Part shown: positions 3,613 to 7,506 of the stretch, one piece after another
Layout: the number at the start of each line of letters is the position of its first letter
Numbering within the stretch: the first letter of the stretch is position 1
Origin: a bacterium
Lineage (GTDB): Bacteria > JAJVIF01 > JAGGVT01
DNA: 7,506 nucleotides
Assembly (NCBI GenBank): GCA_021157815.1
Contig: JAGGVT010000165.1
Span: forward strand, 1-7,506
Reading direction: 5' to 3'
Notes under the pieces: generated by a model
The model's database searches: none
Told to the model about the DNA's origin: nothing
Seen by the model: only the letters and a program-made list of their open reading frames with translations
Program-made: the position numbers and the translations under genes

Positions 3613-3741
3613 AATTGTAACCCGGCGTCCCCTCGCCGGGGTTTTCCTTCGAATACAAATTGTAACCCGGCATCCCCTTGCCGGGGTTTTCCTTCGAATA
3701 CAAATTGTAACCCGGCATCCCCTTGCCGGGGTTTTCCTTCG
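3613..3741. repeat. Three tandem 45-bp hairpin repeats
   Basis: Units begin at 3613, 3658 and 3703, with an exact 45-base period. Units 2 and 3 are identical over their shared length; unit 1 differs at a few positions, and unit 3 is cut after TTCCTTCG. Each unit reads AATTGTAACCCGGC, a short loop, then GCCGGGGTTTTCC, so each can form a 6-bp GC stem. The repeats end seven bases before the mutase stop codon and may shape the 3' end of its mRNA. There are no variable spacers, so this is not a CRISPR array. Because 45 is a multiple of three, they open artefactual frames on the + strand. Confidence 0.9.
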
Positions 3742-5651: not shown

Positions 5652-5942
5652 TCACTCTCCTCCAAGACTTATTAACCAATATAATATAGCAATAACAAAA
5701 ATAATAAATACACCACAACCGAAATTGTATGCGAAGGTTTCGACTTTGCAATCCGGGCAATAGCAATTACCCTCAGGTATCAGCCAGTGACGTATCATCC
5801 ATTTTTGCTTCAAGACGTCATCAATCACCATATATTTATTCTGCTTTGGCTTTGATTTTCTTCCGCATTTATCACATTCCGCAAACCATTGCCCTTCGTA
5901 TTCTGGTGGTAATCTGTCTTGTTGGGTCGTCGTCCGTATCAT
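5652..5942 (-). CDS. Small zinc-ribbon protein with one C-terminal membrane helix
   Basis: A 96-residue protein of no family I recognise. C23-x2-C26 (CDKCGRKS) and C62-x2-C65 (CYCPDC) form a split zinc-ribbon pattern; C60 and C76 are extra cysteines. Between the pairs is a basic, Trp-containing stretch (about 28-58). Residues 72-92 are strongly hydrophobic (FIIFVIAILYWLI) and should anchor the protein in the membrane, leaving a very short tail. The ATG at 5942 has only a weak GGGGC upstream, so the exact start is less sure; a nearby ATG on the same strand is out of frame. It sits alone, about 88 bases after the repeat protein. A membrane-tethered metal-binding adaptor is a guess; no enzyme motif is visible. 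Confidence 0.65.
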   Translation of the reverse strand: MIRTTTQQDRLPPEYEGQWFAECDKCGRKSKPKQNKYMVIDDVLKQKWMIRHWLIPEGNCYCPDCKVETFAYNFGCGVFIIFVIAILYWLISLGGE

Positions 5943-6030: not shown

Positions 6031-6369
6031 TTATGGCAAATTGAAAATGATTTCTCCATTTTTGTTTCTCAATGAGAGCCCCGGTTCATCCTTAAAAATA
6101 CATAGCTTGGCACGGACTTCACCGTTATTGTCCCTCAACGTAAGACTCGGTTCACCCTCATAATCGGTGAGCATAACGCGAGGGTTTCCGTCCTTTCCAA
6201 ATATAACTAGACCCGGCTCATCATCCACAACGGTGAGCATGGCGCGGATCACCTCGTCCTCATCCGTAATAACAAGTTTTTTTGCCCAGATTTCATCCTT
6301 AATATCTGCCTGTCCACTGCTAGCGCCAAGCATCTTCTCAAGGCGTTCAATACGTTCTTCAACCGTCAT
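6031..6369 (-). CDS. Small protein of 22-residue beta-type repeats with N-terminal coiled coil
   Basis: A 112-residue protein. Residues 1-14 (TVEERIERLEKML) form a short heptad-like helix that could oligomerise. From residue 31 there are three and a half repeats of 22 residues: 31-52, 53-74, 75-96 and 97-112. Each follows roughly LxLxDxxGxxRxxLxxxxDEP, with an aliphatic-alternating strand, a turn with Asn/Asp-Gly, Arg, a second strand and an acidic (D/G)EP end. This suggests a stacked beta-hairpin or solenoid fold. GAGAGGTG (complement of 6375-6382) lies five bases before the ATG, so the start is well supported. No signal peptide or catalytic motif is seen. Proteins with comparable repeats are usually annotated hypothetical; function is unknown. 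Confidence 0.75.
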   Translation of the reverse strand: MTVEERIERLEKMLGASSGQADIKDEIWAKKLVITDEDEVIRAMLTVVDDEPGLVIFGKDGNPRVMLTDYEGEPSLTLRDNNGEVRAKLCIFKDEPGLSLRNKNGEIIFNLP

Positions 6370-6566: not shown

Positions 6567-7352
6567 TTATATTTTATTTGTCTTGAAATAATCAATTAAT
6601 AAGTATAATCTTTTGCAATAAATCGGGAACAAAATCATATTCGATATAATGGTATCTCGATAAATAAATTTCCCAGTTGGATGACCTGCATCGTTTCTTG
6701 TTCTTCTTATCATATTAAATATTTGGTCAAGTTTTATGTCAATTTCATCCCTCAATTCGTCAGGTAAACTAGGTATAATGGGTTTAAACTGTTTCGAAAA
6801 TTCATCATATTTTACTTTTATAAAGCGCTTCTCACTAGTCTTATTTTCATATTTACTCCTTTTTTTCGGGTCCGAAATTGCTTGTCCAAAACCATCAATC
6901 AACAATAACATCGCCTTTTCAGCTGCACATCCCAGCATTACAGCAGCAGCTAGTAAATAATTATGCCGAAGGCAATTTTGAGATTCAGTGAGATAGAGCA
7001 AAATATTTTCATCAATATCAGGATTTTCACTTATCAACCTATCCCTGTAATCTTCAGCATCATATGGATCATATTCATCAATATCGCTAATTGATTTTCC
7101 AAAATCTGTTAATCTCATTCCATCAGACCAATCTAAACCCCATGGTGATGAATTCTCAAAACCACCACTAACAATAATTCTATCAAGATATAAATCATGA
7201 AGAACCTGTAGTATGGTTGATTTATCAAGTAATAGACCAGAGTGTGGGGCTAATAAATAATTCAAGTCTCCTTGACTAAATGAATTATTTGAATTTCTGC
7301 CTTTTAAATAATCAAGTATTAATTTTCTTGCTTTCGAATAATTATCATTCAC
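6567..7352 (-). CDS. Winged-helix plus HEPN-like protein, possible RNase or defence-related
   Basis: A 261-residue cytosolic protein of unknown function. Residues 1-88 look like a winged helix: helical start, then ILQVLHDLYLDRIIVSGG and a wing-like strand pair ending in MRLTDFGKSI. Residues 115-255 are helical and HEPN-like: an N-terminal amphipathic helix with HNYLLAAAVMLGCAAEKAMLLL, a charged linker (about 160-185), then R219-N220-DAG-H224, which fits the Rx4-6H catalytic motif of HEPN ribonucleases, followed by a long closing helix. The start is GTG at 7352, with GAGGTGAT (complement of 7358-7365) five bases upstream. The gene is clearly richer in A+T than the mutase. No MNT nucleotidyltransferase antitoxin is adjacent. 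HEPN domains occur in toxins, Abi proteins and anticodon nucleases, but some are inactive scaffolds; RNase activity is inference. Confidence 0.75.
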   Translation of the reverse strand: MNDNYSKARKLILDYLKGRNSNNSFSQGDLNYLLAPHSGLLLDKSTILQVLHDLYLDRIIVSGGFENSSPWGLDWSDGMRLTDFGKSISDIDEYDPYDAEDYRDRLISENPDIDENILLYLTESQNCLRHNYLLAAAVMLGCAAEKAMLLLIDGFGQAISDPKKRSKYENKTSEKRFIKVKYDEFSKQFKPIIPSLPDELRDEIDIKLDQIFNMIRRTRNDAGHPTGKFIYRDTIISNMILFPIYCKRLYLLIDYFKTNKI

Positions 7353-7357
7353 TTGTA

Positions 7358-7365
7358 ATCACCTC
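7358..7365 (-). promoter_or_regulatory. Shine-Dalgarno that fixes the GTG start of the HEPN-like gene
   Basis: The complement reads GAGGTGAT, eight bases complementary to the 16S tail, five bases before GTG. The nearest ATG downstream of it is out of frame, so GTG is the start. Confidence 0.75.
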
Positions 7366-7407: not shown

Positions 7408-7506
7408 CTAAACTATCTCCACCAGATGCACTTCAAACGTTAAATCCTGGCCGGCGAGGGGGTGGTTGGCATCGACTGTCAGGCTTATTTCAGAGACTTC
7501 AACCAC
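7408..7506 (-). CDS. slyD: SlyD-like FKBP-type peptidyl-prolyl cis-trans isomerase, C-terminal end (partial)
   Basis: Only the last 32 residues lie in the window; the gene runs off the right edge and its frame is open to base 7506. The stretch [21 protein letters not shown] is the characteristic C-terminal strand region of SlyD-type FKBPs, where NHPLAG is near-invariant. These enzymes catalyse prolyl cis-trans isomerisation and act as folding chaperones in the cytosol. The protein stops directly after the FKBP core (V, then TAG at 7408-7410), so it lacks the His/Cys-rich metal-binding tail of E. coli SlyD. The HEPN-like gene begins 55 bases downstream with no promoter visible between them, so cotranscription is possible. 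Confidence 0.85.

Follow-up and report, generated by a model that had tools for sequence, protein, structure and literature searches.

What does the gene near the end of contig JAGGVT010000165.1 (assembly GCA_021157815.1) encode, and can its product act in defence as a single protein? The window analyzed here is the whole stretch of 7,506 nucleotides, which is the entire contig (contig 69 of its genome, ending at 7506). An earlier note, made from the sequence alone, had described the open reading frame (ORF) at 6567-7352 as a lone winged-helix plus HEPN-like protein lying in an AT-rich patch between core genes, and had proposed an autoregulated toxin or an abortive-infection effector of lateral origin. 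Judging from sequence comparison and structural modelling, we consider it probable on balance that the gene encodes a laterally acquired single-gene HEPN RNase effector of the abortive-infection type. This reading is supported by the invariance of R219, H224 and P225 among the relatives, the defence or mobile context of several of these, their patchy distribution, the occurrence of broken copies, the absence of a constant partner gene, and the precedent of the Tha proteins. The ORF is situated on the minus strand, starts with GTG and codes for 261 amino acids; sequence comparison identifies it as a real gene and not a chance frame, since 17 relatives align with it. Its main features are as follows.

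6567..7352, minus strand: gene for the winged-helix plus HEPN protein (ORF call, homologues, foreign composition)
7077..7352, minus strand: N-terminal winged-helix-like domain, residues 1-92, ending with the wing and an L-T-x-x-G-K stretch (AlphaFold2, VIA-align)
6579..7019, minus strand: predicted C-terminal HEPN domain, residues 112-258 (AlphaFold2, VIA-align, sub-threshold Pfam matches to DUF4145 and HEPN_Apea)
6681..6698, minus strand: HEPN Rx4H motif R219-N-D-A-G-H224, followed by the invariant P225 (alignment of 18 sequences)
6918..6920, minus strand: E145, the invariant acidic residue of HEPN helix 2 (alignment of 18 sequences)

Fold and predicted active site of the C-terminal domain

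The AlphaFold2 model of the protein, built from ten sequences, has a mean predicted local distance difference test score (pLDDT) of 79.7 and a predicted template modelling score of 0.67; the HEPN half lies mostly at pLDDT 84-97, the N-terminal half at about 54-75. The HEPN helices of the model comprise residues 115-129, 133-158, 204-223 and 232-258, and further helices lie between helices two and three, a layout that fits the description of HEPN domains by Anantharaman et al. 2013 (PMC3710099; here and below, statements taken from this paper refer to the parts of it used in this work). The HEPN fold anticipated from the sequence was indeed recovered on modelling: the top VIA-align matches of the C-terminal half include the HEPN proteins 2hsb (Z-score 11.2, root-mean-square deviation (rmsd) 3.2, 119 residues aligned), 2q00 (Z 10.9, rmsd 2.8, 121 aligned) and 4nqf (Z 9.1, rmsd 3.5, 122 aligned). 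The ROQ region of Roquin is found in the same top list (Z 10-11).

The motif R219-H224, whose residue numbering is exactly as previously given (codons 6698-6681), falls at the end of the model helix 204-223, which corresponds to HEPN helix 3. This is the position of the HEPN RNase motif, Rx4-6H with a polar residue following the arginine (PMC3710099). An acidic residue of helix 2, typically within Ex3[KR], occurs in many but not all HEPN families (PMC3710099); in the present protein E145 is located within the model helix 133-158 and does not show the Ex3[KR] spacing. Arginine and histidine, an asparagine after the arginine and an acidic helix-2 residue make up the set of residues through which HEPN RNases are proposed to act without metal (PMC3710099). 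That the C-terminal domain adopts a HEPN fold with an intact predicted active site is well supported. The possibility of a mutated, dead HEPN domain was discarded in view of the intact motif.

Relatives and invariant residues

The window protein was aligned with 17 relatives, which stem from several phyla and include proteins of plasmids and viral contigs. The relatives from two Planctomycetota metagenome-assembled genomes match all or nearly all of the protein at 44-51% identity (44% when the full length is compared, about 50% for residues 45-261), those from plasmids, viral contigs and other genomes about 22-36%, including the plasmid proteins of Agrobacterium vitis, Mycobacterium marseillense and Paenibacillus polymyxa at 27-28%. 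Six relatives from viral contigs were recovered with the alignment as query and none with the single sequence; a search of the phage collection gave no match, and a PDB sequence search returned chance matches only.

Whereas the median pairwise identity across the 18 aligned sequences is 23%, seven columns are invariant in all of them: Y120, E123, G141, E145, R219, H224 and P225. Both residues that the earlier note had singled out for conservation, R219 and H224, are thus retained in 18/18 sequences, and an asparagine follows the arginine nearly always. By our own estimate, the chance that both motif residues fall among 7 invariant columns of about 244 is roughly 0.0007.

Relation to known HEPN proteins

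Two Pfam families match the protein below their gathering cut-offs, DUF4145 (PF13643) at 16.1 bits (E 0.012; cut-off 23.1) and HEPN_Apea (PF18739) at 14.2 bits (E 0.06; cut-off 24.4). The relative L026 comes closer to HEPN_Apea (21.1 bits, E 4e-4) and also matches Swt1-like HEPN and Ymh weakly. None of the PADLOC 2.0 profiles match the window protein at E <= 1, those matching relatives being scattered and weak, and NCBIfam yielded no match to it. Since the Pfam scores are sub-threshold and the PADLOC and NCBIfam results empty, the protein is, by these sequence searches, a member of a HEPN subfamily lacking a model in these three libraries.

It shares with the DUF4145-like families (PF13643, PMC3710099), its best though sub-threshold Pfam match, the HEPN fold, the Rx4H motif with asparagine after arginine and, in some relatives, an association with restriction-modification operons. 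On the other hand, its signature is RNxAGHPTG, and a plain two-domain fusion to a winged helix is not described for DUF4145 in the parts of PMC3710099 used here. Some members of the EC042_2821 family (winged helix-turn-helix, HEPN and restriction endonuclease; PMC3710099) likewise carry a winged helix before the HEPN domain and occur in restriction-modification operons; they differ by a C-terminal endonuclease and an overlap with DUF3644, whereas the window protein ends three residues past the last HEPN helix and matches neither. ApeA and the Apea-like HEPN proteins (PF18739) are abortive-infection effectors to which both the window protein and L026 show sub-threshold similarity, but the large beta-rich N-terminal domain of ApeA (PMC3710099) is absent here.

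The closest resemblance in logic is with Tha-1 and Tha-2 (PMC11087260), single proteins of approximately 260-300 residues in which an N-terminal domain precedes a C-terminal HEPN domain with RNxxxH, and which come without a conventional, separately encoded antitoxin. Tha-1, from phage 80alpha, has 301 residues and the C-terminal HEPN motif RNSIMH; it acts as a phage-triggered RNase, and defence is lost in its H270A mutant (PMC11087260). The N-terminal domain of Tha, unlike that of the window protein, has no recognised fold, and the profile comparison is marginal (hhalign E 0.0022 at a probability of 13%, over 47 columns of the helix 1-2 region). Because the sequence similarity is marginal, we propose by analogy that the protein may work in a Tha-like manner and do not claim membership.

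Composition and distribution

The AT-rich character of the locus is borne out by comparison with 122 sampled host ORFs: the gene has a guanine plus cytosine content (GC) of 0.310 and a GC at third codon positions (GC3) of 0.225, versus 0.445 +/- 0.039 and 0.457 +/- 0.063 in the host, and thereby lies below all of these ORFs, approximately 3.5 standard deviations under the mean. By a log-likelihood score its codon usage is not unusual and does not set it apart from the host, so that its foreignness rests on GC and GC3.

Relatives are sparse. The survey across the domain found 6 positive genomes among 385 (the genome of the window included, and two of the six being fragments), the Planctomycetota set 3 among 294 (one truncated), and a set from another phylum 2 among 249, in the latter with the sister architecture only (described below). 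The overall frequency of the family in the surveyed genomes is 1-2%, and none of the three class relatives searched contains a relative of the gene. Broken copies also occur, namely a winged helix that has lost its HEPN part (L032:9574-10164), a stretch containing a stop (L024), and a HEPN fragment with repeats ahead of it (L030:9455-9829). An insertion site is not demonstrable, as methylmalonyl-CoA mutase could be located in the class relatives but its neighbours there are not syntenic. Composition and sparse distribution nevertheless back the lateral arrival suggested in the earlier note, and we regard lateral gain of the gene as likely.

Surroundings of the gene and of its relatives

Two further features were assigned upstream of the ORF.

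7360..7365, minus strand: likely ribosome-binding site GAGGTG (Shine-Dalgarno), 7 nucleotides ahead of the GTG start, read from the sequence
7408..7506, minus strand: SlyD/FKBP-type prolyl isomerase gene, truncated at the contig boundary so that its C-terminal end remains (phmmer)

The final 32 residues of this upstream neighbour match SlyD/FKBP prolyl isomerase chains (phmmer, best E 3e-5); its end lies 55 nucleotides upstream of the HEPN gene on the same strand, and it is a possible source of read-through transcription into the latter. Promoter and terminator scans performed no better than on shuffled sequence, and an Rfam search gave no match. Downstream, two small ORFs of 112 and 96 amino acids precede methylmalonyl-CoA mutase. 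The placement between core genes therefore holds on the upstream side, whereas on the other side two small ORFs without a family intervene. The description of the gene as lone is correct for the visible part of the locus, the contig stopping 154 nucleotides upstream of the start.

Several relatives are found in defence or mobile surroundings. L026 adjoins an N6/N4 DNA methylase and a ResIII helicase, with PHP-ATPase, DUF2326, ABC-3C and ThiF genes nearby; L009, on a viral contig, is close to a DUF499 ATPase, a marker of systems related to BREX (bacteriophage exclusion; PMC12839542); L004, on an Agrobacterium plasmid, has genes for UvrD, PD-(D/E)XK nucleases, AbiEii and CBASS (cyclic oligonucleotide-based antiphage signalling system) in its vicinity; and L005, on a mobilizable plasmid, has a recombinase gene as its neighbour. 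The expected defence-island context is consequently present for several relatives, with restriction, BREX-related, CBASS and mobile genes, but not at the window locus. PF04851 helicases, of which the host genome has nine, were set aside as too unspecific. Directly downstream of the relative on the viral contig L010 is an ORF of 196 amino acids (L010:1391-1981) without Pfam match, the start of which we take to resemble proteasome-like N-terminal nucleophile hydrolases.

These surroundings bear on a different explanation, in which the protein is the toxin of a toxin-antitoxin pair and the antitoxin is absent, escapes recognition or lies past the contig end. Many HEPN toxins do have an MNT protein or another antitoxin as partner (PMC3710099), the contig stops close to the start of the gene, and the L004 relative is followed downstream by a DUF6088/AbiEii pair. 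Against this, the immediate upstream gene is FKBP and no antitoxin, the 112- and 96-residue ORFs have no antitoxin match in the family libraries (PADLOC and NCBIfam included), and the neighbourhoods of the relatives examined contain no constant partner gene, small or otherwise. We therefore judge a toxin-antitoxin pair unlikely. The specific case of an MNT-HEPN pair was set aside, no MNT gene being visible.

The N-terminal domain and a sister architecture

The N-terminal winged helix predicted previously is borne out at lower confidence than the HEPN domain. The model contains helices 3-18, 27-37 and 44-56 and strands 60-62 and 79-81; VIA-align relates residues 1-95 to the winged helices of PadR and MarR (Z 8-9.6) and to that of the retron-Ec86 effector (Z 9.2, rmsd 2.5, 75 aligned), and a BFVD fold search gave mostly generic winged helices with poor E-values. 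We assign the domain with moderate confidence as a predicted winged helix of three helices and a two-stranded wing.

A second architecture (L006, L012-L014, L034, L035) combines the same HEPN signature, as RNxSGHPTG or RNEAGHPTG, with a different N-terminal domain, predicted with lower confidence to be alpha/beta. The window protein matches the L035 sister in BLASTP with E 5e-14, and HEPN proteins again rank first for the model of a sister protein, the list including the HEPN toxin 7ae8, Csm6 and MtlR. One sister gene is flanked by HsdS and the start of HsdR (L035:1105-1953), another stands beside an HsdR-like fragment (L034:1456-2304). Because relatives pair the same HEPN domain with different N-terminal domains, the sequences suggest that the latter is an exchangeable module for sensing or control.

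The earlier note had seen the winged helix as a DNA sensor or autorepressor; in this case the protein would be an autoregulated toxin or regulator whose HEPN domain is controlled through binding of the winged helix to foreign DNA or to the gene's own promoter. The layout does fit the PadR and MarR repressors, and type IX retrons (PMC13405049) provide a precedent, with different parts, for control of HEPN by a winged helix: a separate winged-helix protein on multicopy single-stranded DNA acts together with a HEPN RNase, which is restrained in the complex. They differ, however, in comprising two separate proteins, a reverse transcriptase, which the window lacks, and its DNA product, and in a non-canonical H64/R122 active site. 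Moreover, 10/12 members have a winged-helix region that is acidic or neutral on balance (isoelectric point 5.1 in the window protein), the segment around its helix 3 is net negative in 11/12, the vicinity of the gene start contains short palindromes but no operator-like inverted repeat, and relatives with the same HEPN carry another N-terminal domain. Autoregulation through DNA is accordingly rather improbable. Since the domain is acidic or neutral in most members and no operator-like repeat is present, we favour a role in protein contact or control over one in DNA binding or autorepression.

Weighing the proposed function

Quite improbable, in our opinion, is a catalytically inactive HEPN protein serving as an RNA- or protein-binding regulator. 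Such proteins of the MtlR kind exist (PMC3710099), and MtlR itself appears in the fold list of the sister-protein model, but the catalytic arginine and histidine and the acidic helper, which inactive families lose (PMC3710099), are all invariant here. A host RNA-processing or stress gene without a part in defence is highly improbable: the proximity to FKBP on the same strand would allow a shared transcript, but the composition is foreign, the three class relatives that were searched, like nearly all other genomes, lack the gene, and its relatives are located on plasmids, on viral contigs and in defence islands.

Several observations weigh against the preferred reading as a single-gene RNase effector. 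Foldseek alone gave no match at E <= 0.001, and a Z-score of about 11 for a helical bundle is, according to VIA-align's own note, only moderately diagnostic; because Foldseek alone is weak, the HEPN assignment draws jointly on the fold, the sequence motif and the place of the motif, much of its strength coming from the latter two. No family model of Pfam, NCBIfam or PADLOC reached its cut-off. No defence genes are present in the window, the upstream side of which is hidden by the contig end, and the relatives L028 and L031, like the window gene, stand among ordinary neighbours, either housekeeping or without a family.

For the single-gene effector that we favour, we infer RNase activity, dimerisation, a trigger and an abortive-infection outcome. 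The HEPN domain would be a metal-independent RNase of the Rx4H type, and its homodimer would join two R219/H224 pairs over the RNA with the aid of N220 and E145. The winged-helix-like domain may hold the RNase inactive, or aim it, until it receives a signal linked to phage or to a failure of restriction; tRNA or mRNA would then be cut, and the cell would die or stall ahead of phage release.

Other features of the window

Further observations concern the remainder of the contig. A 45-bp tandem repeat (3613-3741; 2.9 copies, 97%) lies just past the stop of methylmalonyl-CoA mutase, its unit holding the palindrome-like CCCGGCATCCCCTTGCCGGGG. The 112-residue ORF (6031-6369, minus strand) consists of short beta-type repeats (DEPGLVI, EPSLTL, DEPGLSL) and has no family match. 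The 96-residue ORF (5652-5942, minus strand) combines a CxxC...CxxC zinc-ribbon-like part with a C-terminal hydrophobic stretch and has sub-threshold family matches only. At 1290-2118 on the plus strand, two small EamA-type membrane proteins overlap in a tandem arrangement and may form a paired small transporter.

Implications

More tentatively, and with considerable doubt, the sequences may define an as yet unnamed family of one-protein immune effectors in which a common HEPN RNase (RNxAGHPTG) is combined with interchangeable N-terminal sensors, either the acidic winged helix or the alpha/beta domain; the N-terminal domain would guard restriction, BREX-like or other defence systems by protein-protein contact and not by DNA binding, and the RNase would be released on attack. 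HEPN RNases are among the commonest killing modules in bacterial immunity, and how single-gene versions are silenced and sense their signal is known for few, Tha being one. A compact family with no separate antitoxin in the neighbourhoods seen, and with one RNase joined to at least two N-terminal domains, would allow a clean comparison of sensor swapping, and would supply a missing profile for the annotation of defence genes.
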